Shown here piece after piece: positions 3,921 through 63,030 of a DNA stretch of 64,000 nt. The stretch is from Ferruginibacter sp. Lineage in GTDB: Bacteria; Bacteroidota; Bacteroidia; Chitinophagales; Chitinophagaceae. Each line of letters starts with the position of its first letter. Within the stretch, counting starts at the first letter, position 1. The position numbers were made by a program, and so were the translations under genes. Where the stretch lies: NCBI RefSeq assembly GCF_028288465.1, contig NZ_JAQBNR010000015.1:1-64000 (forward strand), written 5' to 3'. The notes below the pieces were generated by a model that ran no database searches, was not told where the DNA came from, and worked only from the letters and a program-made list of their open reading frames with translations.

Positions 3921-4111
3921 AACGAAAAAGGTATTGCTGCAGGTGTGGAATTCATTGCTTGTCCTGCCCGGAACTACTGCCCAATAATGATTTAAAAGTA
4001 CAAGATAACAACTAAAAGCCCAAGAGAATTCAGTCCGCTGGAACTGCTGCTGATAGTGAAATACAGCCGAAAATGACAACGCCCAGCCACACTTGCAGCA
4101 ATACCCATGTT
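3921..4111 (-). repeat. attC-like site 1 (distal end of array 1)
   Basis: 191 bp from AAC to GTT. Left arm AAAGGTATTGCTGCAGGTGTGG pairs with right arm CCACACTTGCAGCAATACC. Three GTCnnGCCC-like boxes lie inside. It is the attC of the AraC-hydrolase cassette: flank GTTAGCGG here matches CCGCTAAC at 6141-6148. Confidence 0.85.
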
Positions 4112-4137
4112 AGCGGAACTGGTTTTTGTCAGCTTGT

Positions 4138-5058
4138 TTAATTAAACGAATTTCTAAATTCCAAAGGCGTTTTATTAGTTTTATGCTTAAACAATTTGCT
4201 GAATGATTGCGAATGTTGAAACCCTAAATCAAAAGCTATTTCAGACACCGATAAGTTCGTTGTCGATAGTTTTTCTTTTGCTTTCTCGATAAGCTTATAC
4301 TGTATGTATTGTTGAGCGTTTTGTCCAATTAGTGAACGCAACATATCACTTAAATAACTTGGCGTAATGTACAATTGTTCGGAAAGGTATTGAACAGTTG
4401 GAATGCCCAGATGTAAGGGCTTTTCTTTACTAAGATAATTATCTAAAATTTCTTCCAATTTATCCAATATATTATTGCTTGCTGTTTGTCGGGTAATAAA
4501 TTGGCGTTTGTAAAACCGATTGGCATAATTCAGTAACAGGTCTATTTGTGCAATAACAACGTCTTGACTAAATTCATCTATCCTGCTGTTTAACTCTTCC
4601 TCAATGATTTTAAATACAGAAAGGATGATTTCTTTTTCCTTAACAGATAAATGCAACGCTTCGTTGACGGAATATGAAAAGTAGCCGTATTGCTTTATTT
4701 GTTTTGATAAGGGATAACCCAGTAAAAAATCTGGATGAAATAATAGCACGAAATCAGAAACAGTGTTGGTGTAATTCACGTCATCTCCAATTACCTGGTT
4801 AGGTGCTGCAAACACCATTCCTCCATCATTAAAATCATAATAATGCTGGCCGTATTTTACCCTGGCGGCTGAATCAGCAGAAAAAGATATTTTGTAGAAG
4901 TTCATAATATGCGACCCTTTAGGCGGTCTTAATTCTCCATCGTTATCAGAAGGTTTGATCAGACTAATTAAAGGGTGCAAAGGCTTTGGTAGCCCAAGCA
5001 CCCCATGTATGTCTGACAAAGAATTAAATTTTACCGGTATACTTTCTTTTTCATTCAT
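4138..5058 (-). CDS. AraC-family transcriptional regulator
   Basis: A 306-residue regulator. The N-terminal ~190 residues are a ligand/cupin-like sensing half; the C-terminal ~100 residues carry the two helix-turn-helix units of AraC/XylS proteins (QYLSEQLYITPSYLSDMLRSL and the second HTH with SVSEIAFDLGFQHSQSFSKLFK). It binds DNA and presumably controls the hydrolase gene located 21 bases upstream in the same orientation; the two share one cassette (4109-6148). A two-gene cassette carrying its own regulator is unusual. ATG at 5058 directly follows the intergenic gap; the family length of ~300 is normal. Confidence 0.9.
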   Translation of the reverse strand: MNEKESIPVKFNSLSDIHGVLGLPKPLHPLISLIKPSDNDGELRPPKGSHIMNFYKISFSADSAARVKYGQHYYDFNDGGMVFAAPNQVIGDDVNYTNTVSDFVLLFHPDFLLGYPLSKQIKQYGYFSYSVNEALHLSVKEKEIILSVFKIIEEELNSRIDEFSQDVVIAQIDLLLNYANRFYKRQFITRQTASNNILDKLEEILDNYLSKEKPLHLGIPTVQYLSEQLYITPSYLSDMLRSLIGQNAQQYIQYKLIEKAKEKLSTTNLSVSEIAFDLGFQHSQSFSKLFKHKTNKTPLEFRNSFN

Positions 5059-5079
5059 AAGAAATAAATCTACAGGAAA

Positions 5080-6018
5080 TTAAACTGATTTAGAATCTAT
5101 TTTCCCTTTTGGATGTTGATTTTTTGCTAAAGCTTCCACTGCGTCTTGCCATGCTTTATTTTCCGGGAAAAGTTTTGTGCGAATGTAAGCTGCGGTCATT
5201 TCGTTTACAAAAGCCACGGTTTCCGGATTTTCATCTTTGGTTTGATCTGTTTCTAAAACATCGTATCCCGAAACTCCACCCAATATATGACCACTGTTAA
5301 AAACGGTTAATAAAGTTTTAGGCGCCGGGCTGAAATTGTAGGCATCCATGCGCCAGTTGTCACGGGCTGAAAAAATTGCACTCTTATCCAGGTCTCCGGC
5401 TACTACCAGTACATCTCTTGTCATTTTAGAATAATCAGTGCTTTTAAGTATAGGATAATGTTCAGATACCCATTCTGCAGCGTCTACTCCAATGCCAGGC
5501 GCACCCATAACCACAAATGCCTTTATACGGGGTTCCTCTATATTTACCGTTTTACCGGAAACAGGATCGGCAACATGCATACCAGCAAGCATAGAAACCG
5601 TATTTCCGCCCAAAGAATGCCCAACTGCCGCAACCCTGGTTTTATCTGTTCGTTCGGTAAGATTGGGAATTGCTGAAAGAATGTCTTCAATGCGATCATA
5701 AACATAGATCATATCTTCTGCCCTGGATTTCCAAAACAGGGGGCCTTCGGGTCCGGTTGGATCGAGTTTTAATGTTTTTGAATCCTGGTGAGTTGGTTGT
5801 ATCACTACAAAACCATGAGACGCATAATAGTCAACAATCGGGGCATACCCCCGGTAGGAAGATAGAAAATTTGATGCTCCATGACCGTGTGATAATAAAA
5901 TAACCGGAAGATTTTCTCCACTTACCGGTGCTGTAATCTTAACTTCTAAATCTACCAAACGGTTTGGAACTTGAAACACGATTGGACTAACTGAAATGAT
6001 CTGATTTTGATGTGTCAT
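5080..6018 (-). CDS. alpha/beta-hydrolase (chlorophyllase/PAF-acetylhydrolase-like)
   Basis: About 312 residues from the ATG at 6018; a longer frame uses a TTG at 6045 and is less likely. The fold is seen from the oxyanion-side motif ILLSHGHGAS (~residue 40), the nucleophile elbow GHSLGG (~residue 130) and a late HILGG histidine. Known relatives hydrolyse esters or lipids. No signal peptide, so cytoplasmic. It is the first gene of the two-gene cassette with the AraC regulator and precedes it by 61 bases on the minus strand. Substrate unknown. Confidence 0.87.
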   Translation of the reverse strand: MTHQNQIISVSPIVFQVPNRLVDLEVKITAPVSGENLPVILLSHGHGASNFLSSYRGYAPIVDYYASHGFVVIQPTHQDSKTLKLDPTGPEGPLFWKSRAEDMIYVYDRIEDILSAIPNLTERTDKTRVAAVGHSLGGNTVSMLAGMHVADPVSGKTVNIEEPRIKAFVVMGAPGIGVDAAEWVSEHYPILKSTDYSKMTRDVLVVAGDLDKSAIFSARDNWRMDAYNFSPAPKTLLTVFNSGHILGGVSGYDVLETDQTKDENPETVAFVNEMTAAYIRTKLFPENKAWQDAVEALAKNQHPKGKIDSKSV

Positions 6019-6145
6019 AATTTTTAATTTTAATTGATGACTCAAAAGTCAGCATTCTCATTTTTTTGAATGTAGCTCTATTAAGGATTATTGTAGTCGA
6101 ATTGAGGGACTTGTTATTAGTAGGGTCTGTCTTACCATTGCCGCT

Positions 6146-6331
6146 AACGTTCAGGGCTTTATGATGTTGGGATATTTCCATTCGTCCGCCCAAAACCGAT
6201 GCTAAATATATAAATTAAAGTTCATTGTTTTTCCTAAACTTCAAAGGTGCTAGTCAAGCCCAGACTGAAGACTGGCTTTGCTTTTAGCTGATGATAGTTG
6301 GTCAAGCCCCAATAGCATAAAACCCCATGTT
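6146..6331 (-). repeat. attC-like site 2 (family B)
   Basis: 186 bp. Left arm GGGCTTTATGATGTTGGG, right arm CCCCAATAGCATAAAACCCC. Belongs to the cassette of the gene at 6478-7095; its flank GTTATGTGCA matches TGCACATAA at 7320-7328. Confidence 0.85.
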
Positions 6332-6477
6332 ATGTGCAGTACTGGCTACTTTGTGAATTAAGATTCTAAACATTCTTATTATTTCCTCACCCATTGATTT
6401 GTGTATCCCAACTGAGAAGCTTAATTTAGAAGATAAGGCCTTATATAATAAACCTAGATTAAATAGTTTTCATTTAA

Positions 6478-7095
6478 TCAAAATACTTTAAGGCAATAAC
6501 TGTGTTTTCTATCATATTCACTTATTGCTCCCACTATATTTTCAAATAAATAAAAGTGCTTATCCCCATTTCCATTGAGTATTTCGAAACTTGCTTTACC
6601 ACATTGCTCCATGTTTTTACGATACACAACTTGCGGAATATCAGAAATTGAAAACACATATGATCCTTTCTTTTTAGCTATAATGCCAATTTTCAAATTA
6701 TACTTGTTGTTAGATTCCAAAAAACTCAGTTGTTTAACCCTTTTAGGATCTAAGGTTTGAACAGAGTAAATTTCACCTTCCACTTTCACAAAATCAAAAC
6801 TATCAACAGCACCTCTTTCATACGTACCAAACTTTTTTATATCTTGAACTAATAGCGTTGTACCAAGATTTACTACTGATACAAAATCTACTTCACTGCT
6901 TGTAGTTAAATCTTGCATACGGGTCGATGTTTGACATATTAACCAAAGGGTGTCTCCCAGAGGAATACTATCGTTCTCACCTAAAAAGGAAGCTGTAATT
7001 GAAAAAGAATAATTTGATTCATTGCAAGGTTTTTGACACGCCGTGAATTGAAGAAGAAACCACGTTAGTAATAAAAGCGTTATCGAAGATTTCAT
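6478..7095 (-). CDS. cassette lipoprotein, function unknown
   Basis: 205 residues. N-terminus MKSSITLLLLTWFLLQF followed by TAC is an SPII lipobox, so the mature protein should be anchored by a lipidated cysteine. The remainder is beta-rich with further cysteines (QKPCNES, MEQCGK, HSYCLKV) that could form disulfides. No family recognised. It stands alone in its cassette; 225 bases between its start and the truncated site at 7325 hold nothing I can identify, an unusually long leader for this array. Confidence 0.75.
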   Translation of the reverse strand: MKSSITLLLLTWFLLQFTACQKPCNESNYSFSITASFLGENDSIPLGDTLWLICQTSTRMQDLTTSSEVDFVSVVNLGTTLLVQDIKKFGTYERGAVDSFDFVKVEGEIYSVQTLDPKRVKQLSFLESNNKYNLKIGIIAKKKGSYVFSISDIPQVVYRKNMEQCGKASFEILNGNGDKHFYLFENIVGAISEYDRKHSYCLKVF

Positions 7096-7324
7096 AAATT
7101 AATAGTGATATTTAAAACAAATTTCTTGGTATCTAATTAAAAGCCTGAAGTTTGATATATTCAAATCTTCATCACACTAACGTAAAATACTTCAAACTTA
7201 GAATAAGTTGTGAATTCAAAAATTCAACCAATATTTTTAAATTGATATTTCTTATTTCCTTAGCCAAGTAAGATAACAAATAAATGTCGATGCTTCTAAC
7301 ATTAAGGGTTAAATTGTATTGCAC

Positions 7325-7339
7325 ATAAAGCCCCATGTT
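7325..7339 (-). repeat. truncated attC-like remnant A
   Basis: Only ATAAAGCCCCATGTT remains where a ~186 bp site is expected. It keeps the right arm end and the GTT core, fused directly to the left cassette boundary GCACATAA. The four-base microhomology ATAA occurs at both deletion ends. Confidence 0.7.
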
Positions 7340-7414
7340 ATACGCAGACATATTTGTACATCTTCAAATTAAGTTCTCGCAGAAAGACTAAAACTCATAA
7401 TAACAATTATTGAA

Positions 7415-7840
7415 TTAGGCTGGCCATTCAAATTCTGAATCCAAAACTCTTTTAATTGTTGAAAAAATTCTCACTTCTCTTTCTTCTCCTTCAAGTAAGT
7501 TGGCATAAAAATATTTTTCTGAAACCAGCTTTTCAAATCCAAATATTATTGTCCTTTCGTTATAAGTATACGAATCACTATCTTCAGCAACTTTCCAAAA
7601 TTTTGACAACCGTCCATCAGATATTTTAAAGCAGCCTGAAAAAAGGTACATTGAATAATTAACGCCAACACCATCGAAATGATCCTCACATACTAAATAC
7701 CACTGAAATCTTTTAAAAGTCGCTATGCCATAAACTGTATATTCTTTATTAATAGTAACTTCAAAATGACTGCTTTTGTTGTAGGAATAAACGCCTTCTG
7801 GTAATGCAGCACCAGTATTATCAATACATTTAACTTTCAT
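7415..7840 (-). CDS. cassette protein, hypothetical (141 aa)
   Basis: 141 residues, no signal peptide or membrane segment, mixed alpha/beta. It begins MKVKCIDNTGAALPEGVY and ends in a polar tail (DSEFEWPA). Small acidic soluble proteins of this kind are frequent among immunity proteins, but nothing in the sequence proves that role. Cassette ends GTTATACGCA (7337) and TGCGTATAAC (7909-7918) match perfectly, defining this as a discrete cassette. Confidence 0.7.
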   Translation of the reverse strand: MKVKCIDNTGAALPEGVYSYNKSSHFEVTINKEYTVYGIATFKRFQWYLVCEDHFDGVGVNYSMYLFSGCFKISDGRLSKFWKVAEDSDSYTYNERTIIFGFEKLVSEKYFYANLLEGEEREVRIFSTIKRVLDSEFEWPA

Positions 7841-7915
7841 AATTTAATATTCGAATACAGTCGTTTTTGATTGATGGAATTTCTAATGAACTTGAACTCG
7901 TATAAGTTTGCGTAT

Positions 7916-8103
7916 AACGAGCAGGGTTTTATGCAGGTTGGGTATTAGTATTTCGTCTGCCCAGAACCGCTGCTGATTGAAAATATGTTGATGAAGTTAA
8001 GAATTAATGCTCAGCGATGTTTGTCCAGCCGACAACTAATGCCTGGCTTTGCAATTTGCTGAAGCTAAGTTTGTCAAGCCCAACTTGCATAAAACCCCAT
8101 GTT
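7916..8103 (-). repeat. attC-like site 3 (family C)
   Basis: 188 bp. Left arm GGGTTTTATGCAGGTTGGG pairs with right arm CCCAACTTGCATAAAACCCC. Its GTTA end supplies the TAA stop of the adjacent gene at 8102. Confidence 0.85.
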
Positions 8104-8644
8104 ATAAGCCGTTTTTTGAACGTTTAGCGTCATAATAAAAACTCCAATGCGGTACATATCCGTGGTCTATGTCACCACTGTCAGGTGATGGAAAAAACTT
8201 AAACTGTTCTATAAAATTATTATGTCTAATTGTATCAATTTCTGCCAATAAAAATTCTTGTGTTGTATTCGGAAAAAACCTTTTTTTTATCGTATCAATT
8301 GCTTCCTGTTTTGTCTTGTCAGTCATTTGAACGCTAATTGCCCAATAGCCACGAACTCTTTGAATTTGTCGAAGATTATCTGTTTCAATGTAAAGTGTCC
8401 CAATCATTGTACCCGTACTTTGTCGAGCAGAAAAGAACTTGTCAAGAGTAATATATGAGTGGCCGTCACCTTGTCTATTAGTTGTGTCTTGGTAAAAATT
8501 AGGTCTTGAAGTTAGCTTGTCAAAACGTTCATTAAAAACAAAAAGGGGTGCCCCTTTATAAAATAAACTTGAAGTGTCTGAATATACTTTTGGTCTGTCA
8601 GCATTACCAGTTTGTCCCGTATACAGGATAACGTCAACAAACAC
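8102..8644 (-). CDS. cassette protein, hypothetical (180 aa)
   Basis: 180 residues, predicted soluble, no signal peptide. C-terminal part ends HGYVPHWSFYYDAKRSKNGL and the stop codon TAA is formed by the core of attC site 3. The start ATG at 8644 is 39 bases from the truncated site B. No family recognised. Bounded by GTTATAAGCC on one side and GGCTTATAA on the other. Confidence 0.7.
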   Translation of the reverse strand: MFVDVILYTGQTGNADRPKVYSDTSSLFYKGAPLFVFNERFDKLTSRPNFYQDTTNRQGDGHSYITLDKFFSARQSTGTMIGTLYIETDNLRQIQRVRGYWAISVQMTDKTKQEAIDTIKKRFFPNTTQEFLLAEIDTIRHNNFIEQFKFFPSPDSGDIDHGYVPHWSFYYDAKRSKNGL

Positions 8645-8679
8645 ATGAATGAGAGAAGAAGCTTCATTTAAAATGGCTT

Positions 8680-8694
8680 ATAAAGCCCCATGTT
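8680..8694 (-). repeat. truncated attC-like remnant B
   Basis: ATAAAGCCCCATGTT, identical to remnant A, directly joins boundary GGCTTATAA to the next cassette GTTAGCTGCC. Same ATAA microhomology at the junction. Confidence 0.7.
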
Positions 8695-8703
8695 AGCTGC
8701 CGT

Positions 8704-9147
8704 TTATTTTTTCCAAAAGTCGTTGTGATATAAATGGTCAACAAATATTTCAAAAGTACTACCTAATGAAATAAAGTCATTTTTGTCTCCAATGTAAGGA
8801 AGGATCCCAAAATTCATTTTATCATCTCGAGTGTCGATTACATACATCTCGTTACCGCCGTCTGTTCCAATAAAAACAATCCAAGGGAAAATTTCACCTC
8901 CATACTCTTTCGTGTATCTTTCGATTTGTTCAACCTGCAGAAATATCGAATACGATTGTCCTACTTTTCCATTATATCCGTTAGTCCTGCGTAAGAACGC
9001 AATATAATCTTCCGGAAACTTTATTGCCAGTAACTTTTCTACCTGTTTAATATTGTCCAAGTCGGCGGCTGGAAAAAATTTACTGATACCGCCATAATCT
9101 TCAGAACTACTTGGATCGCTGAAATATTTTTTTATGATGTCTGTCAT
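8704..9147 (-). CDS. SMI1/KNR4 (SUKH) family protein
   Basis: 147 residues. The SUKH pattern is clear: an N-terminal helix with IKQVEKLLAIKFPEDYIAFLRRTNG, the aromatic-rich middle (IFPWIVFIGTDGGNEMYVID) and the C-terminal helix with FEIFVDHLY. SUKH proteins are best known as immunity partners of polymorphic and contact-dependent toxins. Here there is no toxin gene next to it; it stands alone in a cassette bounded by GTTAGCTGCC and GGCAGCTAAC. The immunity role is family knowledge, not seen directly. Confidence 0.85.
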   Translation of the reverse strand: MTDIIKKYFSDPSSSEDYGGISKFFPAADLDNIKQVEKLLAIKFPEDYIAFLRRTNGYNGKVGQSYSIFLQVEQIERYTKEYGGEIFPWIVFIGTDGGNEMYVIDTRDDKMNFGILPYIGDKNDFISLGSTFEIFVDHLYHNDFWKK

Positions 9148-9185
9148 TGATGTCTTTTACCGAAGTGTGTCATTGAATGGCAGCT

Positions 9186-9371
9186 AACGTATCGGGCTTT
9201 ATGATGCTGGGATATTAACTTCCGTCTGCCCACAACCAAAGCTAAATTAATAATGAAAAGTTCATTGTTAGTACTAATGTTCAAAGATGCTGGTCCTGCC
9301 GAAATTAATGCCTGGCTTTCCTTTTAGCTGATGTTTGTTGGTCAAGCCCCAATAGCATAAAACCCACTGTT
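9186..9371 (-). repeat. attC-like site 4 (family B)
   Basis: 186 bp. Left arm CGGGCTTTATGATGCTGGG, right arm CCCCAATAGCATAAAACCC. Belongs to the cassette with the gene at 9384-10115. Confidence 0.85.
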
Positions 9372-9383
9372 GCGCGAAGGCAT

Positions 9384-10115
9384 TTAGTATTCAATAAGTT
9401 TCTCTAAAGTCAAATGATTCGCAATCCTAACTCTAAATTGTTTGTTGTTAGAAATTGTTTCGCCGTTTTTAGTAAAAGTATAGTCAACTTGCATTTTTAA
9501 AGACTCTGTATGTTCAATCGAATATTGTCCTGATAATGCGAACTTATTCATTTTTGAAAAGTTGTTGATTTCAAAAAAGGAATTCATTTGGATGGGTTCA
9601 CTATGCAAAGAGTCCCAAGCCAGCGGTCGAAATGCTGGCTTTACAATTTCATTTTTATCATTGTAAATCGTCAAATCGAATTTTATAAATTCAATGTCGC
9701 TTCCTTTGGTAATAATCGCTTCGATACTCACTCTGTCAAACATTTCTGGTTGCAATTTGAATTCTACTGTCAAGTCATTCTCCTTGTAAAGGGAAATATG
9801 GTTTATGTTGTCTTTGTCAATAATAAACTGTTTAGTCATATTAGGCAAGCCAGCATAAATTGCTGTCATGGCCAAAATGAAAAGTAGTGCAGCTATAATC
9901 AATAAGAGTTTCTTGCTTTGAAGTTTATTTCTTTGCGAAAACAAATAAAGCAAAGGAATGCTAAGAAGGACTGTCATTATTAAAGCAACTGTTCCGCCTG
10001 CATTTGAAAAGTAAAGTCGTCCGTGACTACCTGCAAGAGCAAATGCTAAAACAAAGAATGAAAGTAGAAGAGCAGTAATTTGAATTGCAGAAAATGTCAA
10101 GACTCGTTTTGTCAT
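9384..10115 (-). CDS. cassette membrane protein, hypothetical
   Basis: About 243 residues from ATG at 10115 (the frame extends to a TTG inside attC site 5, which is unlikely to be used). Three N-terminal membrane spans (about residues 7-27, 35-52 and 65-85), then a ~150-residue beta-rich domain with NKNEIVKPAF and KNGETISNNKQF, probably on the periplasmic side. No recognised family. Single-gene cassette; the two ends GTTGCGCG / CGCCCAAC match with one difference. Confidence 0.75.
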   Translation of the reverse strand: MTKRVLTFSAIQITALLLSFFVLAFALAGSHGRLYFSNAGGTVALIMTVLLSIPLLYLFSQRNKLQSKKLLLIIAALLFILAMTAIYAGLPNMTKQFIIDKDNINHISLYKENDLTVEFKLQPEMFDRVSIEAIITKGSDIEFIKFDLTIYNDKNEIVKPAFRPLAWDSLHSEPIQMNSFFEINNFSKMNKFALSGQYSIEHTESLKMQVDYTFTKNGETISNNKQFRVRIANHLTLEKLIEY

Positions 10116-10143
10116 TAGTGGTGTGTCTGTTTTGCTTACGCCC

Positions 10144-10330
10144 AACGGGCAGGGCTTGCTGCAGGGGTGGAATTCATTGCTCGTCCTGCCCGGAACCGAT
10201 GTTAAATTTATAATTAAAAGTTCATTTTTTTACAAAAGTTCAGATTTGCTGGTCAAGTCCAAACTGAAGACTGACTTTGCTTTTAGCTGAAGATTGTTGG
10301 CTAAGCCCCAATAGCATAAAGCCCCATGTT
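10144..10330 (-). repeat. attC-like site 5 (chimeric A/B)
   Basis: 187 bp. Left arm GGGCTTGCTGCAGGGGTGG is family A, while the centre and right arm CCCCAATAGCATAAAGCCCC are family B, so the terminal arms no longer pair well. Looks like a homologous recombinant between two sites. Confidence 0.8.
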
Positions 10331-10342
10331 GTGCGCAGTTAC

Positions 10343-10954
10343 CTATTTAGGATAAACGATTAACCTAATCTGTCTATATGTATCTATGTCCCTTTTGAAC
10401 ATCAGAAGATAAGCATTGAGTTGGTTTAACCGTTGCCATTTCACATCATCTCTTTCTGTTTCTTCTAAAAACTTACTTTTTATATTCCTAACAGATGGAG
10501 TGCCAAGCAGTTTTGTAAAAGTTAAATCAAGAGTAGAAAACTTTCTGTCGAAAGTCTTGATAATATTTGTTCGAGGCGAGGCTGAATTAACTGAGACTGA
10601 ATCATTAGCAACTTCAGCAACATCCCACTCATGCAAAATTGTTCGAACTGAATCATCGGATGTTGCGTAGTATTCTAATGTATATTCCATTCCTTCATCT
10701 GCGGATGACCGCAAGAACCGTTTGACATTCGTTAATCTGAAATGTGCCTTATTGGGATAAAGACTTGTGTCAATACCGACTGTATACTCATAAGAAATGT
10801 CTTTAGAGCCGATATTTTGTTCCATTTCTATGGCGTTTTCAAGGGTTATGGGAAAAGAGTTCACAGAGATATCTTCTGAATCAATAGCTTTTTTTGTATT
10901 ACATCCTATAAGCAACAAACTGCAGGCAATAACTTTGGACAATAATGAAGTCAT
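10343..10954 (-). CDS. cassette lipoprotein, hypothetical
   Basis: 203 residues with an SPII signal: MTSLLSKVIACSLLLIG then C (LLIGC lipobox). The mature part is soluble and mixed, with WQRLNQLNAYLLMFKRDIDTY near the C-terminus. No family recognised. Cassette ends GTTGTGCGCA and TGCGCACAAC are perfectly complementary. Start ATG lies 34 bases from the preceding site. Confidence 0.75.
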   Translation of the reverse strand: MTSLLSKVIACSLLLIGCNTKKAIDSEDISVNSFPITLENAIEMEQNIGSKDISYEYTVGIDTSLYPNKAHFRLTNVKRFLRSSADEGMEYTLEYYATSDDSVRTILHEWDVAEVANDSVSVNSASPRTNIIKTFDRKFSTLDLTFTKLLGTPSVRNIKSKFLEETERDDVKWQRLNQLNAYLLMFKRDIDTYRQIRLIVYPK

Positions 10955-10988
10955 GTGTAAATATTAATTTGAATGTATAATTGCGCAC

Positions 10989-11174: not shown

Positions 11175-11184
11175 GGTAGCAATG

Positions 11185-11742: not shown

Positions 11743-11770
11743 AAACGTGAAGTCTCTAAACATTGCTACC

Positions 11771-12745: not shown

Positions 12746-12762
12746 GTACGCTGCCTTATCAC

Positions 12763-55604: not shown

Positions 55605-55616
55605 ATGCTTGCCGCT

Positions 55617-55804: not shown

Positions 55805-55826
55805 GGGCGCCGTTTTAATTTTGACA

Positions 55827-56408
55827 TCAATATGTACCCCACTTTCTAAAGTTAAAAATCTTTCTGAATCCATGTTTAATCTTATAGGTTTTTTCGGTAA
55901 GCATTGTGTTGTAGTCTTTCTTTGTTTGGTCCACCAGGAAACTCCTTGCTTCTATCATCATAGGATGTTCATCTATTTGTTGCTCAGTCAAATCACCACT
56001 TTCTTGAATTTTAAAGTCCACTGTATCTGAGAGGCAAATACCCACGTCATGAACGTGCTTTGGATTATGATCAACTAGGAATTGTAGAGTTTCATATACA
56101 GCAACGCAAGCATTTAATGCATAGGAGCTAATCTCATCGCCAAAATCGTCCATATCAGGAGTGATAGAATTTATGGCTTCGATGAATTGCTCCAATATTA
56201 ATTTGTCAACTTGATTAAGTTTTGCTTTCTCACACACTAAGATGGCATCAAGCAGTTGGTCTGGATTACCAAATTGATATCTCTTTGAGAAGATTTCATA
56301 ATCGAAAAACAGCTTTTTGCAAACTGTTACGGCGAAGTCTAGCTGATCTTCAAAATGAAGCGATAAAACCTGCTGGTTATAACAATAAAGGAAGTCTCTA
56401 TAATTCAT
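55827..56408 (-). CDS. DUF416 (YjaG-type) protein
   Basis: 193 residues. LDFAVTVCKKLFFDYEIFSKRYQFGNPDQLLDAI, then DDFGDEISSYALNACVAVYETLQFLVDHNP and ICLSDTVDFKIQE match the all-helical DUF416 family. Function unknown; members appear in some toxin-immunity neighbourhoods. Ends GTTGGGCGCC / GGCGCCCAAC perfect. Confidence 0.85.
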   Translation of the reverse strand: MNYRDFLYCYNQQVLSLHFEDQLDFAVTVCKKLFFDYEIFSKRYQFGNPDQLLDAILVCEKAKLNQVDKLILEQFIEAINSITPDMDDFGDEISSYALNACVAVYETLQFLVDHNPKHVHDVGICLSDTVDFKIQESGDLTEQQIDEHPMMIEARSFLVDQTKKDYNTMLTEKTYKIKHGFRKIFNFRKWGTY

Positions 56409-56430
56409 GAGGTTCGATTAAATGGCGCCC

Positions 56431-56619
56431 AACGAGCAGGGCTTGCTGCAGGGCTGGAATTCATTGCTTGTCCGCCCGGAACCGCTGCTGATTAAATATA
56501 TAAAAGTACAGGTTAACAAACAAAAGCCCAACAATGTACGTCTAGCCCAGATGAAGCAGAACAGCGATAAAATGACCATTGCTCCAATGTCCAGCCAGCC
56601 TTGCAGCAAACCCAATGTT
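56431..56619 (-). repeat. attC-like site 35 (family A)
   Basis: 189 bp. Left arm GGGCTTGCTGCAGGGCTGG, right arm CCAGCCTTGCAGCAAACCC. Confidence 0.88.
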
Positions 56620-56672
56620 GTGCGTTCGCTTTTTGTCCACCGACAAAATTCATTCTTGTCTTAGGAAAATGG

Positions 56673-57134
56673 TTAAGAAAGATTGATTTTAATTTCATCT
56701 TTGTCAACTGAAATTAAAACTAAGTCAGCTTCATTTTCGGGTGTCAACACAACCGTTTTATTGAGAACTTTTGAAAGATTTGTCATATAGTTCATCAAAT
56801 TATTATGGTCGTCCATTGAGTTGATTTCATTTGGCGTTATGTCGTTTTCAATTTCTTCGGCTATAAAAAAATGGGCATTAACTTGAATTTTGTCAATGAA
56901 AACAGTTGCAGTAGAGCAATTCTCTTGAGTCCCGTTCCAGTAGTCAAATATTTTTGTTAGGTCAACCTTATCTTTTTTTACTTCTGTGTCATAAATGTGA
57001 AAAGATGTCTTATAGTTCTTGTTCACAAAGTCTGCCCAAATTTGCCAATCTTCCTTTGTTGTGTTATGAACATAAATGTCACGATAAGAACCGTCCCTGT
57101 TATAAATTTTGTCTTTAAGTATTTGCCAATCCAT
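56673..57134 (-). CDS. cassette protein, hypothetical (153 aa)
   Basis: 153 residues from ATG 57134 (MDWQILKDKIYNRDGSYRDIYV). Soluble, acidic; TKEDWQIWADFVNKNYKTSFHIYDTEVKKDKVDL. The start matches small immunity-like proteins that open with 'W-x-x-L...R-D-I-Y-V', but no family is assigned. Ends GTTGTGCG / ACGCACAAC. Confidence 0.72.
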   Translation of the reverse strand: MDWQILKDKIYNRDGSYRDIYVHNTTKEDWQIWADFVNKNYKTSFHIYDTEVKKDKVDLTKIFDYWNGTQENCSTATVFIDKIQVNAHFFIAEEIENDITPNEINSMDDHNNLMNYMTNLSKVLNKTVVLTPENEADLVLISVDKDEIKINLS

Positions 57135-57168
57135 AGTCGGAGAGTAAGGCCTGTTTAAAGTGACGCAC

Positions 57169-57354
57169 AACGGGCAGGGCTTTGTGCAGGTGTGGCATTA
57201 GTATTCCGTCCGCCCACAGCCGCTGCTGATTGAAAAACTGATGTTGAAGTTAAGTACTAAAGCTCAAAGTTGTTTGTCCAGCCCGAACTACAGCCTGGAT
57301 TTGCAATTGGCTGATGTTAGTTTGTCCAGCCACACTTGCACAAAACCCAATGTT
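57169..57354 (-). repeat. attC-like site 36
   Basis: 186 bp. Left arm GGGCTTTGTGCAGGTGTGGC, right arm GCCACACTTGCACAAAACCC. Confidence 0.88.
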
Positions 57355-57368
57355 GGCTGCCGTTAATT

Positions 57369-58076
57369 TCACTTAGGGTCATTTAATTTAAAAAAGTCCT
57401 TGATGTTTTTTTCGTCAACGACCTTACGGTGTATCCAGTCAACTAAGTATAGTTTTTCTGTCGCTAACAACTTTGAAACTTTGGCAATTGACCTTACCAA
57501 ATCTTTATCTGTGTCCGCCCCATAAAAACATAAAACAGAAACATTGTTGTTGTCATCTTTTACTCCGTAATAGCTTAAGCCTTCGGATGAAATAGAAAAT
57601 CCATTTTTTATTTGCCCGCCGTTTCCATTAACAGTAATTCCTGCGATTTCAATCTTCGCGTCGCCCAAATAATTTTTAACCTTTTCAAATGATAGTGAGA
57701 TTGGCTTTGTTATAAGTCGTCTAACGTAGAGATTTTTAAAAGCAGAATAATCCTTGCCTTGATGCATCTCGTGTTCAAAAATATAAGTGATGCTGTCAAT
57801 TTCTTGGTCAATTGAAGTCTTTTGGTCTTTTGAAATAAATTCTATTTGTCGCCAATCGTCCTCAAGAATATTTAAATTGTTGCTATCAGTTTTATTTTCA
57901 AAGTCAGGGAAAGTATTTTCAATCGTCGGAATTGTCATTAAGAGTTCGTTAGGATTTATAGTCTGAACATTTCCTGAAGAGTCGGTCGCAATAATTTTAC
58001 TTTCCTTTTGATTGTTGCAACCAAAAAGCGAAAACAGTCCGGCTATAAGTCCCATAAATATTAAAAGTTGTTTCAT
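57369..58076 (-). CDS. cassette lipoprotein, hypothetical
   Basis: 235 residues. SPII signal MKQLLIFMGLIAGLFSLFG then C, followed by NNQKESK. Mature part long and soluble (VKNYLGDAKIEIAGITVNGNGGQIKNGFSISSEGLSYYG). Not recognised. Ends GTTGGCTGCCG / CGCAGCCAAC. Confidence 0.75.
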   Translation of the reverse strand: MKQLLIFMGLIAGLFSLFGCNNQKESKIIATDSSGNVQTINPNELLMTIPTIENTFPDFENKTDSNNLNILEDDWRQIEFISKDQKTSIDQEIDSITYIFEHEMHQGKDYSAFKNLYVRRLITKPISLSFEKVKNYLGDAKIEIAGITVNGNGGQIKNGFSISSEGLSYYGVKDDNNNVSVLCFYGADTDKDLVRSIAKVSKLLATEKLYLVDWIHRKVVDEKNIKDFFKLNDPK

Positions 58077-58097
58077 GTCGAATGTTTAATCGCAGCC

Positions 58098-58289
58098 AAC
58101 GGGCAGGGCTTGGCGAAGTGGGGGAGTGTTGTTCCGTCCGCCCCGGCAAACCGAAGCCCAATTTATAAATTAATGTTGATGATTGGCACTTAGCTTAATT
58201 ATTAACGTCCAGCCCGATATGAAGCACAACAGAATTACAACTGCTGAAACACAGCTTCCGTCCGCCCCCATTTTGCCAAACCCGATGTT
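58098..58289 (-). repeat. attC-like site 37
   Basis: 192 bp. Left arm GGGCTTGGCGAAGTGGGGG pairs with right arm CCCCCATTTTGCCAAACCC. Confidence 0.87.
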
Positions 58290-58298
58290 GCCAGCAGT

Positions 58299-58925
58299 TT
58301 AGTAGAGTGCTTTTGAAAGGTTGTTTAAGAATTCACTTAATGCAAAAACCCGGTCTTCAGATATTACCTTTTTATCTCCGATTAGTAATTCATCTCTTTT
58401 AATTTCAATAATGATTTCGTTAAGACTGATTTGTTTAATTAACTCTCTAAAAGTATTGGTGATTTTCAGTTGAGCTTTTAGTTTGTCATTGGTTACTACA
58501 AAAAAGTGTCGGCTGAAAGCTTTATCATCTTCGAAATCCAACTCTATTGGATTGATAAGTTCATGAATTTTGTCCAAGAAGGTTTCTGTCCTAATTAAAA
58601 TATGCCCATAATCTTCCTTCAGTTTGTAATAACCCCAGGGTTGAAATTCTACGCTGGGCCCTGGAGAATATCTCGAGTTGCGAAGCCAATCTTGAATATC
58701 GGGGAAGCACAAAAAGAATGGTCGATGTCCATTGTTGATTTTAAAGACAGATCCTTTATCATTTAAACCGTTGCTCCTAAATATTTCAAAAGAAGCAAAA
58801 GGCAAATTAAATTCGTGATCTACTTCAACTGAATAAGTGACTTTGAGTCTAGTATAAATGTCGAAAAGTCTCTGAGCCTCATCTATGCTCATGTCAAAAG
58901 TGCTAAAAGGGAATGGTACTGTCAT
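58299..58925 (-). CDS. cassette protein, hypothetical (208 aa)
   Basis: 208 residues, soluble, no signal peptide. MSIDEAQRLFDIYTRLKVTYSVEVDHEFNL at the start, a middle domain with FEPWGYY-like aromatic cluster (VEFQPWGYYKLKEDYGHI). Not recognised. Start 12 bases from site 38; ends GTTGCCAGCA / TGCGGGCAAC. Confidence 0.72.
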   Translation of the reverse strand: MTVPFPFSTFDMSIDEAQRLFDIYTRLKVTYSVEVDHEFNLPFASFEIFRSNGLNDKGSVFKINNGHRPFFLCFPDIQDWLRNSRYSPGPSVEFQPWGYYKLKEDYGHILIRTETFLDKIHELINPIELDFEDDKAFSRHFFVVTNDKLKAQLKITNTFRELIKQISLNEIIIEIKRDELLIGDKKVISEDRVFALSEFLNNLSKALY

Positions 58926-58937
58926 AAAATTGCGGGC

Positions 58938-59126
58938 AACGGGCAGGGCTTGCTGCAGGGCTGGAATTCATTGCTGGTCCGCCCGGAACCGCTGCAGATT
59001 AAAGATATAAAAGTACAGGTTAACAAACAAAAGCTCGGCAATGTACGTCCAGCCAAGATGAAGCACAACAGCGATAAAATGACGATTGCTCCAACGTCCT
59101 GCCAGCCTTGCAGCAAACCCAATGTT
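58938..59126 (-). repeat. attC-like site 38 (family A)
   Basis: 189 bp. Left arm GGGCTTGCTGCAGGGCTGG, right arm CCAGCCTTGCAGCAAACCC. Confidence 0.88.
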
Positions 59127-59139
59127 GCCTGCTGTACAT

Positions 59140-59937
59140 CTACAACTTTTCCTTTAAAATCTTTTCCAATGACAAAGGAACTTCGGAATTATGAGTTTCA
59201 CCGTTCCAAATGTCATAGTCATAGGTCAAATTAGCGTACTGCCTGGTGTCAAGAAATACTTTTGCTTCATTAGTGCCTTTCAAGATTTTGTTTACAGTCT
59301 CCTTAGAACCCGAAGCAAAGTATAGATACTTATTTTGACTGAACCCTGTTTGTACATGATTGAACTTATAAATTGAATATTTATCAATCCATAAGGCCGG
59401 ACTAAGAGCAAAATATTTTGAAAATAAATTGTCTGATTTAAAGAGGCAGAAGAATGCAAAAAGTCCGCCTAATGAATGTCCTAATATGCTATTGCTGTCT
59501 ACGTTTGTTTTAAATTTTGAGTTTATGGATGGAACTAATTCATTTTTGAGATATGAATAAAATTTTTCTGTCTGCCCGTAATTTTTATCTCGTCCAACTG
59601 TGTCATAGCCGCTTATCGTTGGCAAAATAAAATCTCTACGGCGCAGAACATGAAAGTTGCCTATGTGTCCAATACCAACAAAAATTGAGTTCCGTAAGTT
59701 ATTATACTGGTTTGTTGAAATAAGTTCCCGTAAATGTGTGCCTGATTTTAAATTAGCGTCGCAGTAATAAACTATGCTGTAAGTATCATTGAGATTGTAA
59801 GCGGGTGGCAAAGAAATGTATATTTCAAAACTGTCGCCTACAGTTTTTGAATATTCAATTTGCATTTTTGTGTCAAACTGTCCATGAGCAGATGCCAACG
59901 AAAGCAGCAGGAAGTAGAACAAGAAATGTCGTTTCAT
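59140..59937 (-). CDS. secreted esterase (Fes/IroE-like alpha/beta-hydrolase)
   Basis: 265 residues from ATG 59937. Signal peptide MKRHFLFYFLLLSLASAHGQ. Esterase-D-like layout: YSIVYYCDANLKSG, FVGIGHIGNF, YSYLKNELVPSINSKF, nucleophile elbow ILGHSLGGLFAF (~residue 145), FALSPALW and a late acidic/His region YDYDIWNGETHNS. Predicted periplasmic or extracellular hydrolase; substrate unknown. Ends GTTGCCTGCTGTA / TATAGCAGGCAAC. Confidence 0.87.
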   Translation of the reverse strand: MKRHFLFYFLLLSLASAHGQFDTKMQIEYSKTVGDSFEIYISLPPAYNLNDTYSIVYYCDANLKSGTHLRELISTNQYNNLRNSIFVGIGHIGNFHVLRRRDFILPTISGYDTVGRDKNYGQTEKFYSYLKNELVPSINSKFKTNVDSNSILGHSLGGLFAFFCLFKSDNLFSKYFALSPALWIDKYSIYKFNHVQTGFSQNKYLYFASGSKETVNKILKGTNEAKVFLDTRQYANLTYDYDIWNGETHNSEVPLSLEKILKEKL

Positions 59938-59965
59938 AAACGGAGGGTTCAATTGTATAGCAGGC

Positions 59966-60155
59966 AACGGGCAGGGCTTGCTGCAGGGCTGGAATTCATA
60001 GCTCGTCCTGCCCGGAACCGCTGCTGATTAAAGATATAAAAGTACAAGTTAACAAACAAAAGCCCAACAATGTATGTCCAGCCAAGATGAAGCACAACAG
60101 CGAAAAAATGACCATTGCTCCAATGTCCTGCCAGCCTTGCAGCAAACCTGATGTT
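59966..60155 (-). repeat. attC-like site 39 (family A)
   Basis: 190 bp. Left arm GGGCTTGCTGCAGGGCTGG, right arm CCAGCCTTGCAGCAAACC. Confidence 0.88.
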
Positions 60156-60172
60156 GGTGGCAGGCGTTTACG

Positions 60173-60688
60173 TCAAGCTGTTTTGAAAATCCTTTTCAGT
60201 TTAGTTATGAAACGATTTTTATTTTTTTCGCCGTCCCAGTACTTTTTCCAATTGACATCAAATTTATCGCCCTTCATAATTTTACGATTGTCAGGCGGCA
60301 TACCGACAACAGCTTTAAAAGGACCAGTTCCTCCCTCTAAATAATAAACCTCATTGTCGTCTCTAAATTCTCGGCTGAAAAACAAATGAACAACTGTCAA
60401 ATTTGTTGTCGAGAAATAAATGCTGCTGTCAACCCATTTTGGTGTTTTGTCGTCCTGGTAAAATAAGTCGACAACTTGGTCAAATGAAATTTGTCTGCCT
60501 TGCAGTTTATTCCAAACTCTTAAATAACCATTTTCCTTTTCAGTCAAATGGTCGCTAACTGTTCGTTCGCTTGGTTCAATAATAAATTTATAATTGTCTG
60601 AAAGTTCGTTAAAGCAATTTTGAGATGTCCAGTGGTGCAAATGAACAAGTAGAAGTTTAAAATGGTCTATAAAAGTGTGTCTGTCCAT
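60173..60688 (-). CDS. cassette protein, hypothetical (171 aa)
   Basis: 171 residues from ATG 60688 (MDRHTFIDHFKLLLVHLHHW); the frame happens to run on through attC site 40, but that part is site sequence, not gene. Soluble; EVYYLEGGTGPFKAVVGMPPDNRKIMKGDKFDVNW near the C-terminus. Not recognised. Ends GTTGGTGGCAGGCG / CGCTTGCCACCAAC. Confidence 0.72.
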   Translation of the reverse strand: MDRHTFIDHFKLLLVHLHHWTSQNCFNELSDNYKFIIEPSERTVSDHLTEKENGYLRVWNKLQGRQISFDQVVDLFYQDDKTPKWVDSSIYFSTTNLTVVHLFFSREFRDDNEVYYLEGGTGPFKAVVGMPPDNRKIMKGDKFDVNWKKYWDGEKNKNRFITKLKRIFKTA

Positions 60689-60722
60689 TGCGATAGTAGG
60701 GTGTGTCTTTACGCTTGCCACC

Positions 60723-60913
60723 AACGAGCGGGGCTTTGCGCAGCCTGGGTATTTGTTGCTGTGTCCGCCCCACTGATGATGTAAATTAAGAAATGAATTT
60801 TGAAAGCCAAACAAAATTTGCTTTAATAAACGGTCCAGCCCATGACCAATGATTGGTAGCGAACAATTGTTGAAGATTGTTTGTCCTGCCCAAGTTGCGC
60901 AAAACCTAATGTT
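60723..60913 (-). repeat. attC-like site 40
   Basis: 191 bp. Left arm GGCTTTGCGCAGCCTGGG, right arm CCCAAGTTGCGCAAAACC. Confidence 0.87.
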
Positions 60914-60946
60914 GGCGGCTGTGTTACTTCGTGGACTATCTAGCAC

Positions 60947-61486
60947 TTAATTTTTAGTCGTTGATGTATCGCTGTAAACAGGGTTTCTGTAAGAAGTAAT
61001 TTTTTCTAAATAGGGGCCTATTGCATCCTTTCTCCATTCGTTTGATGGGGTATAAACTACAGTTCCATTATTTTCTGTTTGCTGAATTTTTATTTCAAAA
61101 CTGTCCTTTTGCAAACTAACAAAAATCATTTTTGTCTCCCAAATTCGTGATGGGTGTCCTGGGAAATATGCTTCTACATTTTGAAGCAAATTAATGATTG
61201 TGTCAATTTGATTTTGGTTAGATATAATAAAGTCTTTGCCTGTCAAATTCACATTCCAATCAGGTGCTGATGGTCGTAACAGAATTTTAGATATTGTTTT
61301 GCCTTCTACTTTTGAAATCGCATTCCATTTGCCCCAAAGTTGTCTTGGTAGAAATTGTCCGATAAATATAAGCCCCATTAAAACTCCAAGTGTAACATTC
61401 AATTTTTTATTATTCCATTTTCTTACAATTGAGAATGTTATTAGTAATGCCCCGAAAAGAAGCCAAAGTACTGTATGATAAGTCAT
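60947..61486 (-). CDS. cassette membrane protein, hypothetical
   Basis: 179 residues. Two N-terminal helices (TVLWLLFGALLITFSIV; NVTLGVLMGLIFIGQFL) then a ~130-residue soluble domain (ISKILLRPSAPDWNVNLTGKDFII...IWETKMIFVSLQKDSFEIKI). Not recognised. Ends GTTGGCGGCT / AGCAGCCAAC. Confidence 0.73.
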   Translation of the reverse strand: MTYHTVLWLLFGALLITFSIVRKWNNKKLNVTLGVLMGLIFIGQFLPRQLWGKWNAISKVEGKTISKILLRPSAPDWNVNLTGKDFIISNQNQIDTIINLLQNVEAYFPGHPSRIWETKMIFVSLQKDSFEIKIQQTENNGTVVYTPSNEWRKDAIGPYLEKITSYRNPVYSDTSTTKN

Positions 61487-61541
61487 TTAAAATATTTGTT
61501 TCATACACTGTAAATAATTGGAGTGTCGCAACATAGCAGCC

Positions 61542-61727
61542 AACGTTCAGGTATTGCTGCAGGCGGGATATTTTATAATGTCCTGCCCGTAACTACTGCT
61601 GATTGAAAATATTTTGTTGAAGTTAAAGACTAAAGCCAAATTACTAACGTCCAGCCCGAACCAATGTACAGCGATGCAAACTGCTGAAGTTCCAATGTCC
61701 TGCCCCGCTTGCTGCAATACCACTGTT
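61542..61727 (-). repeat. attC-like site 41 (family E)
   Basis: 186 bp. Left arm AGGTATTGCTGCAGGCGGG, right arm CCCCGCTTGCTGCAATACC. Confidence 0.86.
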
Positions 61728-61741
61728 GGGCGTAGGTTTTT

Positions 61742-62362
61742 TCACAACGGATAGTGTTTTAAATATTCGGTTTTGGGATTAATTTTTGTCCATTCGCCAA
61801 GTCCAACCCAATCGTAACCTTTACTTAAAGGAATAACTGGCATTTCAATATCGTCTAAAGAATATTGTTGCTCGTCAAAACTTGCTGGAAATACAAAACT
61901 CTCAATATAATTTTTGTCTAATTGTAGAATTAATTTGTCGAAAACTTCTTTGTCAAATTTCTTGTAATTGCTTAAAAGAAAGTCTGCAAACATTTTAAAA
62001 ACGACTGTAGCATATTCATGAGGTGTTATTGATTGGTCAATATCGTCAGCAATGACACTTAGGGTAGCCCATTTTTCTACTTTCTCAAACGTTCTAAACC
62101 CTTTTTGTCCAAAAAATAATCTGGTCTTAGTCGCAAATGGACTTGTATATGGAAACGGGAACTTTCGATTCTTAGGTATTGACGGCGAAAAGGAAATAGT
62201 GAATACATAAACATATTTGTCACTTTGCAGCACTTTGTTTGGCTTTAATATATTTTCATTAATAAAGTCAAACACATACTCACTCACTTTATGTGAAATG
62301 CGAGGTCGAGCCAAAAGGCTTTTATAATTAACACCCCAACTTCTTTTAATCACAAATGGCAT
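61742..62362 (-). CDS. cassette protein, hypothetical (206 aa)
   Basis: 206 residues, soluble, basic N-terminus MPFVIKRSWGVNYKSLLARPRISHKV. Contains KYVYVFTISFSPSIPKNRKFPFPYTSPFA and a C-terminal KGYDWVGLGEWTKINPKTEYL. Not recognised. Ends GTTGGGCGTAGG / CTTACGCCCAAC. Confidence 0.72.
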   Translation of the reverse strand: MPFVIKRSWGVNYKSLLARPRISHKVSEYVFDFINENILKPNKVLQSDKYVYVFTISFSPSIPKNRKFPFPYTSPFATKTRLFFGQKGFRTFEKVEKWATLSVIADDIDQSITPHEYATVVFKMFADFLLSNYKKFDKEVFDKLILQLDKNYIESFVFPASFDEQQYSLDDIEMPVIPLSKGYDWVGLGEWTKINPKTEYLKHYPL

Positions 62363-62395
62363 TGCTAAATTTTAGGGTCTTGTAAACTTACGCCC

Positions 62396-62581
62396 AACGA
62401 ACAGGGCTTTATGCAGGTTGGGTATTAGAATTGTGTCTGCCCATGCCGCTGCTGATTGAAAATATGTTGTTGAAGTTAAGAACTAAAGTTCAGCGATGTT
62501 TGTCCTGCCCGAACCAAAGCCCGGCTTTGCAATTGGCTGAAGCTTAGTTTGTCAAGCCCAACTTGCATAAAACCCCATGTT
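62396..62581 (-). repeat. attC-like site 42 (family C), proximal site of array 2
   Basis: 186 bp. Left arm AGGGCTTTATGCAGGTTGGG, right arm CCCAACTTGCATAAAACCCC. Confidence 0.88.
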
Positions 62582-62600
62582 GTGGGCTGTTGCCGTCAAG

Positions 62601-62954
62601 TTATTTTGTCTCAGTTTGTTCACGCAATTGTGACATATACCAATTGTGATATTCTTCTAACCGAGTAAAATATAATGTCAGTGCTTTATGTTCATCATTT
62701 CCTGTTTCCGCTAAAAAGTAGTCCTGCCAAAAACTTGTTTGTGCCGGATTATATCTTGAAGTGTACCATTCTATAAATCCTTTCTCTCCAAAATAAAAGT
62801 CAATTTCATTTTGCGAAATATTACTACAAAACTGATACCCAAGAATAAAATTGGGCAGTTTGCTAATTTTTGCTAATCCCAAATACATTCCCGGTCGCTC
62901 TCTTATCAGAGTTAGAAGTAGTTCCGTCAAGTTATTATATTGATAGGTTTTCAT
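62601..62954 (-). CDS. cassette 1 of array 2, hypothetical (117 aa)
   Basis: 117 residues, soluble. LTELLLTLIRERPGMYLGLAKISKLPNFILGYQFC is a recurring pattern ('RPGMYLG...I..L..FI.GY') of small proteins of unknown function. As the recombinase-proximal cassette it is, by integron logic, the most recently inserted and best expressed. Ends GTTGTGGGC (62579) and GCCCACAAC (62983-62991). Confidence 0.75.
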   Translation of the reverse strand: MKTYQYNNLTELLLTLIRERPGMYLGLAKISKLPNFILGYQFCSNISQNEIDFYFGEKGFIEWYTSRYNPAQTSFWQDYFLAETGNDEHKALTLYFTRLEEYHNWYMSQLREQTETK

Positions 62955-62988
62955 TTGCTACTTAGTGTGTTTCTTGGCAATTGCCCAC

Positions 62989-63030
62989 AACATGTGTATT
63001 ATAGCTAAAGTACGCTACTTTTTATCAAAA
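62989..63030 (-). promoter_or_regulatory. candidate attI and array promoter
   Basis: The first cassette ends at AAC 62989-62991 with no attC behind it, so this is where an attI should lie. On the minus strand TATAAT (62998-63003) follows TTGATA (63023-63028) at 19 bases, which would start transcription at the cassette boundary. A palindrome AAAGTA-CGC-TACTTT spans 63007-63021, between the two boxes: a candidate recombinase- or repressor-binding site. The boxes are sigma70-like rather than the Bacteroidota TAnnTTTG type, so this is tentative. Confidence 0.45.

Follow-up and report, generated by a model that had tools for sequence, protein, structure and literature searches.

In the excerpts drawn on here of the papers cited, integrons are defined by an integrase with an IntI-specific insertion (I2) near patch III (PMC9668308). 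The I2 helix, through which IntI is held to have acquired the capture of single-strand cassettes, is called necessary for cassette capture, is reported from no other protein, with a 'lack of intermediates', and docks the extrahelical bases in the L arm of attC (PMC7790495). An 'integron-like' recombinase subgroup in which the insertion is incompletely conserved has been noted previously (PMC8138268), and the complete integron that a 2022 IntegronFinder survey adds for Bacteroidetes is that of Salinibacter ruber M1 (PMC9024848). Here we describe a stretch of 64,000 nucleotides from Ferruginibacter sp. (NZ_JAQBNR010000015.1, positions 1 to 64,000; the window), in which gene cassettes separated by long attC-like sites lie beside a tyrosine recombinase that lacks I2. 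By sequence comparison we show that the units consist of a gene and its 3′ site with edges at GTT, that they follow an attI, that different cassettes lie behind the same attI, and that the arms of the sites are paired. Judged on this evidence, the system works like an integron, yet it is not an IntI integron. It is very probably an integron-type array, in which the recombinase is predicted to insert and excise cassettes, likely between the folded single strand of a long attC-like site and a duplex attI downstream of its own gene. No description of this system was found in titles and abstract openings of the open PMC literature, preprints excluded, by which absence is not proven.

Cassette units, attI and shared cassettes

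The window is contig C13 of a 6.88-Mb genome (G000). Searching with nhmmer, and listing each hit base by base, gave 42 full sites of 184-192 bp (58-203 bits), the number and length that the first-pass annotation of this DNA had proposed; they start with AAC and end with GTT, as it had stated, AAC being exact in 36 and GTT in 39 of the 42. The same annotation had described one array, 3921..62991. A single continuous array is ruled out by the layout: the sites fall into two blocks, A and B (Table 1), each with its own attI and about 19 kb apart, with site-free DNA carrying open reading frames (ORFs) on both strands between them. Its author overlooked the two-block layout and the second attI and probably mistook an attI for a degenerate site; two fragments, 7324-7354 and 8680-8708, fit its two truncated sites, and its 'degenerate' one is probably the attI at 62991. 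In 41 of 42 segments the longest ORF runs on the minus strand; the uniform minus strand claimed at first pass fails only in 32799-33590 (75 vs 85 aa). The stop of the longest ORF lies at most 33 nt from the downstream site in 37 of 42. The cassettes in these blocks mostly consist of one ORF with a 3′ recombination site, in the same direction. A second array in the same genome (G000:C84:137588-161616) contains 22 sites and reaches the contig end.

In 30 of 31 loci an attI was recognised as a GTT downstream of the recombinase stop, followed by bases that agree with R″ of the first site at 6 or more of 7 positions; when ends were swapped between loci, a mean of 2.5 and a maximum of 7 of 31 loci did so. 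These 31 come from 35 loci with hits, L092, L097, L106 and L120 being left out with a first site more than 3.5 kb away. The distance from attI to the recombinase is 125-355 bp in 29 of the 31. Alignment of 33 attIs (31 loci and the two of the window) revealed C at -13 (32/33), A at -8 (32/33) and T at -7 (30/33), followed by GTT. The arrangement is that of an integron, with attI beside the recombinase and insertion at GTT.

Judged by the recombinase (97% identity), the closest named relative is Ferruginibacter paludis CECT 8366 (Chitinophagaceae), and cassette variation past attI was assessed in this one close genome pair. Recombinase and leader of the two share 96.6% identity across 1008 bp, the match ending at GTT 62991-62989. 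Despite this flank nothing aligns past attI; the F. paludis array beyond it (L051, 5.8 kb, five sites) matches the window only in site sequence and in one gene, whose homologue (75%) is located elsewhere in the window. The absence of cassette variation between close relatives, which the first-pass annotation had said would tell against cassette capture, is thus contradicted.

Shared cassettes were found by blasting loci against each other, and their edges were read base by base. Four cassette pairs, 90.6-99.8% alike, have their edges at GTT, and three of them are between genomes: L111 and L119 (95.9%, 1448 bp; at attI in one, second in the array in the other), Terrimonas pollutisoli and Sediminibacterium sp. 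C3 (90.6%, 1588 bp), and two Sediminibacterium (91.9%, 682 bp; one copy at attI). The fourth lies within one array of Agriterribacter humi, where a cassette has been copied to attI (99.8%, 609 bp). All four matches span the complete site downstream of the gene and end no more than one or two bases past GTT. In three of them the start also lies within a few bases of GTT; the Terrimonas-Sediminibacterium match starts in the conserved arm, about 20 bp ahead of GTT. These edges indicate that the mobile unit is a gene plus its 3′ site, the canonical integron polarity. Since cassettes recur in different genomes with edges at one exact position, movement like that of antibiotic-resistance integrons is likely. 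The same recurrence, in other genomes and other array positions, contradicts the notion that the sites are only vertically inherited dispersed repeats, and the integron logic proposed at first pass stands on the gene-plus-site units, their GTT edges and the attI.

Window positions 6306-7340 and F. paludis L155 1909-2954 are 81% identical up to the GTT of a truncated site. The left flank of the window (1500-4300) has no syntenic counterpart in F. paludis, where it matches only sites, one gene type and short pieces. In Niastella caeni, L095 134-7345 contains an exact 3606-bp tandem duplication including recombinase and site, which is either real or an assembly artefact.

The attI of block A has no recombinase nearby, and its leader of about 96 bp recurs on C86 of the same genome and on C34 and C32 of F. 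paludis. The R′ of the block A attI matches R″ of the site at 12554 in 7/7 positions, and a 7/7 match to the first cassette is found at three orphan attIs (block A, C86, and F. paludis C34 at 229.9 kb). On F. paludis C32, R′ matches the nearest site, 3.2 kb away, in 5/7 only, and the copies at 430 kb and 427 kb on C34 have no nearby site at useful scores. The orphan copies are window 13187-13285, L158 3672-3763, L173, L172, L174 and L175, of which those without a 7/7 match look empty or are less clear; tblastn (E up to 1) of the fetched stretches, including window 12500-33000, detected no recombinase remnant beside them.

The leaders of the orphan attIs contain a 24-nt element, TAACAACAATACAAAATGTATAAC. 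A similar element with 2-7 mismatches is present downstream of the recombinase in 9 of 30 loci, 89-90 nt from the GTT of attI. In shuffled leaders the best match had 10.3 mismatches on average and never fewer than 5, and hence the weaker matches among the nine rest on their constant spacing. The element may be an operator, a promoter or an accessory recombinase site. A Bacteroidota-type promoter just upstream of attI was matched in only 6 of 31 loci, and no cassette promoter is therefore claimed.

Site structure and pairing of cassette ends

The inner arms form 22 pairs in the alignment of 42 sites. Of 922 pair cells 90.0% are paired, compared with 70.9% after shuffling, and 17 of the 22 pairs have changed on both sides (covariation 0.449 vs 0.137), in agreement with the self-complementary arms noticed at first pass. 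Complementary outer arms reach 12 nt beyond AAC and GTT and pair across the cassette, not across the site: the right end of site k and the left end of site k+1 are paired in 244 of 320 cases (permuted 140.5, sd 7.9, 0/20,000), whereas the two ends within one site are paired in 156 of 336 (permuted 146.7, sd 8.1). Position 8 outward is the sole failing place among the 12 (0.05), and is mostly G-T (30/40). The variant GTA of site 13 is matched by the TAC of site 14 at the opposite end of their shared cassette. Since it is the ends of inter-site segments that match, and not those of a single site, each excised circle is expected to contain one hairpin, which closing the circle would restore because the outer arms of each unit match. 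Of 40 sites rebuilt as in circles, 35 were more stable than their integrated form (mean -32.0 vs -26.8 kcal/mol); with outer arms swapped between cassettes the mean was -26.4 kcal/mol.

The same end matching was observed elsewhere. On 35 other loci it was 6.30 of 7 (n=77; permuted 3.24, sd 0.14; same-site 3.39); hits truncated at contig ends, lying on the palindromic plus strand or located upstream of the recombinase were left out, as were weak ones (up to about 30 bits). A further test used 20 author-chosen regions, several picked for a nearby recombinase, a family recombinase being found in 8 of the 20. Here the C84 array and those of F. paludis gave 6.24 of 7 (n=21; permuted 3.08, sd 0.31), and matching was weaker, at 5.42 (n=33; permuted 3.21, sd 0.23), at sites whose model span is about 150 bp, which come from other Bacteroidota and from a single genome of the same genus.

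These data bear on the idea that the sites are dispersed palindromic repeats, of the MITE or REP kind, inserted between genes that do not move. Repeated palindromes, with a few scattered copies on other contigs of the genome, are what such elements would give. Their insertion also predicts matching ends of one site, which are near the permuted value, and it leaves aside the gene-plus-site units that recur with edges at GTT, the attI, and the one orientation relative to the recombinase of all 133 minus-strand hits (the 6 hits on the plus strand come from reading these palindromes backwards). As read in these sequences, the end pairing and the recurring units refute this idea, which we consider hardly conceivable.

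The sites have an attC-like architecture: an imperfect hairpin with R box, unpaired spacer, L box and variable loop. The left spacer is 5 nt in 39 of 42 sites and the right spacer 3 nt in all 42. The integron core motif is RYYYAAC / GTTRRRY; RYYYAAC fits only 7 and GTTRRRY only 4 of the 42 sites, the AAC and GTT triplets alone being conserved. No consensus extrahelical base or bulge was found in the 42 sites, in 35 of which the L-stem is indel-free, and Rfam at gathering scores gave 0 matches.

The same cassettes and enzyme could instead engage in ordinary duplex-site recombination, as in Xer systems, with the inverted repeats merely positioning the recombinase. This would suit an enzyme without the I2 helix, which is held to permit single-strand recombination (PMC7790495), and sites with no consensus extrahelical base and mostly indel-free L-stems. 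It fits poorly with the outer arms, whose sequence varies while pairing within the cassette is kept, with the compensatory changes of the inner arms, and with the lack of fixed bases after GTT. Because the outer arms vary yet pair and the inner arms change by compensation, it is pairing rather than duplex sequence that is conserved, and we regard duplex recombination as unlikely.

The recombinase family, its distribution and the cassette genes

The window recombinase matches PF00589 (8e-35) and PF13495 (9e-11). Residues R259, K284, H351, R354, H377 and Y386, which we take to be catalytic, are invariant in 49 family rows. The protein scores 161.6 bits with TIGR02249 (integron integrase), below the cut-off of 265; a positive control from the same order, G052, scored 421.9 bits. 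Scores of 157.2 with TIGR02224 (cut-off 335.15) and 149.7 with TIGR02225 (cut-off 329.6) indicate that it is not a XerC/XerD orthologue.

Neither motif spacing nor alignment to IntI4 revealed an IntI-specific I2 insertion in the window recombinase. The spacing from KGxxxR to HxLRH is 61 in this protein, 58-61 in the relatives measured and 63 in the distant L049 and L127; it is 64-66 in Xer and 100 in the true IntI L124. With an alternative start motif it is 107 in 13 of 14 IntI and 66 in the single family member fitted. The L160 recombinase, with a spacing of 63 by count on the sequence, is insertion-free. IntI4 aligns in two blocks between which the insertion is skipped, and is also the nearest solved fold found by Foldseek (2a3v). 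In a smaller, careful tree the IntI clade (7 rows, 100/99) is separate from the window-recombinase family (34 rows, 91/87), two Xer rows forming the outgroup, and the XerC/XerD-like proteins of the same genome separate from that family (100/99); in a larger quick tree IntI is one clade. The lack of I2, the score and the position outside the IntI clade bear out the first-pass view that the recombinase is not a canonical IntI. The N-terminal domain (residues 1-82) is weakly matched by Pfam DUF5710 in 21 of 49 members (E up to 0.1, best 1.5e-4); because these matches are weak, any role for this domain is a guess. A full-length relative of the recombinase (30.5% identity, 99% covered) is encoded on a Persicobacter plasmid (CP012862.1, 200870-201994).

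Of 35 relatives from the same genus, 29 carry sites. In a sample of 296 Bacteroidota genomes (GTDB), 57 have sites, with 8 candidates per genome scored, and 93 have window-family recombinases. Of 36 genomes with both, 19 have a listed site and a recombinase at most 15 kb apart, compared with about 0.92 expected (our upper-bound estimate). This count uses listed site and recombinase matches and is less biased than the test on chosen regions; recombinase rows G226:C11 and G348:C75, on contigs without listed sites, were left out. Among 36 near pairs, 26 have the relative strand seen in the window and 27 have the site downstream. Five genomes (G061, G066, G078, G149 and G294) have a divergent layout like that of ordinary integrons; the recombinase frame is short in four of them (246-311 aa) and 397 aa in G149.

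If this were an ordinary integron with an IntI that is degenerate or encoded elsewhere, and the neighbouring recombinase a bystander, the integron-like layout seen here would be expected; a codirectional integrase is known from Treponema (PMC3607928, in excerpt), and true IntI scores over cut-off in 84 of the 296 Bacteroidota. Against this, the own genome has no IntI match at E 1e-30, IntI over cut-off is absent from all 35 same-genus relatives, though 29 hold sites, and from all 11 own-family genomes (0/11), and attI adjoins a member of the window-recombinase family in 30 of 31 loci. A hidden IntI is thereby largely refuted, and we hold it to be very improbable.

Of 47 cassette ORFs scanned, 12 passed the Pfam cut-off: three SUKH proteins, one AraC-type regulator, two hydrolases, LemA, a thioredoxin-like protein and four DUFs. 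The SUKH (SMI1/KNR4) proteins, which are often immunity proteins, come from cassettes at 8704-9147, 38316-38912 and 46054-46491, two of which are 78% alike over 688 bp. Ten cassette ORFs were submitted to PADLOC, which returned one candidate phage defence gene (Table 1).

Table 1. Features of the window and related elements; sites 1-42 are full sites, each listed base by base
Feature	Position	Strand	Remarks
Cassette block A, 8 full sites	3921..13189	-	genes 4138-13191 on minus strand
Cassette block B, 34 full sites	32613..62991	-	genes 32797-62954 on minus strand
Predicted cassette recombinase, tyrosine recombinase, 407 aa	63115..64000	-	gene runs past the window to G000:C13:64338
attI of block B	62989..63114	-	crossover GTT 62991-62989 (minus strand) and leader up to recombinase stop
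Second attI (block A), ~96-bp leader	13187..13285	-	GTT 13189-13187; copies in own C86, F. paludis C34 and C32
Cassette gene, 729 aa, candidate phage defence PDC-S46	43619..45808	-	PADLOC, 800.5 bits
TAACAACAATACAAAATGTATAAC-like element, between recombinase stop and attI	L082, L107, L117, L112, L084, L113, L098, L110, L081
Site 1	3921..4111	.
Site 2	6146..6331	.
Truncated site, single arm left, inside two-gene cassette	7324..7354	.	4.4 bits
Site 3	7916..8103	.
Truncated site, single arm left	8680..8708	.	8.0 bits
Site 4	9186..9371	.
Site 5	10144..10330	.
Site 6	10989..11174	.
Site 7	11771..11956	.
Site 8	12554..12745	.
Site 9	32613..32798	.
Site 10	33591..33778	.
Site 11	34344..34535	.
Site 12	35028..35219	.
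Site 13	35800..35990	.	GTA in place of GTT
Site 14	36618..36801	.	TAC/GTA
Site 15	37354..37540	.
Site 16	38119..38307	.
Site 17	38940..39127	.
Site 18	39704..39889	.
Site 19	41303..41491	.
Site 20	42018..42202	.
Site 21	42817..43007	.
Site 22	43430..43620	.
Site 23	45857..46045	.
Site 24	46679..46864	.
Site 25	47428..47616	.
Site 26	48150..48338	.
Site 27	48817..49000	.
Site 28	50046..50235	.
Site 29	51019..51205	.
Site 30	51794..51983	.
Site 31	52737..52925	.
Site 32	53754..53943	.
Site 33	54651..54838	.
Site 34	55617..55804	.
Site 35	56431..56619	.
Site 36	57169..57354	.
Site 37	58098..58289	.
Site 38	58938..59126	.
Site 39	59966..60155	.
Site 40	60723..60913	.
Site 41	61542..61727	.
Site 42	62396..62581	.	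part of cassette next to attI

Predicted mechanism and comparison with known systems

In the mechanism that we propose, the neighbouring recombinase would be the acting enzyme and a folded single strand of the site its substrate. A cassette would enter as a circle at attI, and orphan attIs may be served in trans. The choice of strand would come from the unequal spacers (5 vs 3 nt) rather than from extrahelical bases.

Several observations weigh against this account. Both strands of the integrated sites fold equally well, and G-T is commoner than A-C at one outer position only; neither result decides for strand choice through G-T versus A-C mismatches. The window's own cassettes have no match above 81% identity among the loci fetched, and at the 6306-7340/L155 match nothing aligns beyond the GTT of the truncated site, a junction that the simple cassette model leaves unexplained. 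Contig C84, with the second array, has no PF00589 recombinase. End matching is near chance in 3 of 9 regions not of the Chitinophagaceae type (L164, 3.5, n=2; L165, 2.0, n=1; L167, 3.0, n=1). At 8 candidates scored per genome, 17 of the 36 genomes that contain both have no listed site closer than 15 kb to a recombinase, and of the near pairs 10/36 have the opposite relative strand and 9/36 lie on the other side. The 91/87 support of the window-recombinase family in the smaller tree is unstarred, and in the larger tree this family is not one clade (3 changes, forced).

More tentatively, the system may be a second, I2-free kind of integron, sister to IntI and widespread in Bacteroidota. It would capture cassettes as folded strands without the I2 helix, at sites without extrahelical bases, perhaps with the N-terminal domain recognising the hairpin, and one recombinase would feed several orphan attIs in trans. 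We regard this as possible but somewhat short of probable. If true, an I2-free sister kind would be the missing enzyme type for the origin of integrons. A cassette system of the same logic, with a related I2-less enzyme and sites lacking consensus extrahelical bases, makes the claim that I2 is necessary directly testable. With sites in 57 of the 296 Bacteroidota, it also represents a pool of cassettes that searches based on IntI would be expected to miss.

The system resembles a chromosomal (sedentary) integron with IntI, attI and attC in its tandem, mostly single-gene cassettes with the site at the 3′ end of the gene, in the attI beside the recombinase, the edges at GTT and the different cassettes next to attI in a close relative, in the paired variable outer arms with an unpaired spacer, and in genes mostly without a Pfam match. 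It differs in its recombinase, which lacks I2, falls outside the IntI clade and has 407 aa with an N-terminal domain, and in its sites, which in the window measure 184-192 bp (in other Bacteroidota the model span is about 150 bp) and have neither a GTTRRRY core nor a consensus extrahelical base. The recombinase is also codirectional with the cassettes in the window, and there are orphan attI copies. The orientation is that of the Treponema-type integron with reversed intI, where intI is transcribed toward attI in the cassette direction (PMC3607928, in excerpt), but Treponema integrons are described with intI and the enzyme here is not IntI. The window family may sit in the 'integron-like' subgroup of simple tyrosine recombinases (PMC8138268); the part of that paper cited views the insertion as essential for integron function, whereas here an insertion-free enzyme adjoins a cassette array. 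In fold and score the enzyme is close to archaeal XerA-like proteins, and the XerC/XerD-like proteins of its own genome are separate from it. Xer systems have dif-like single sites, unlike the many hairpin sites of the present arrays.

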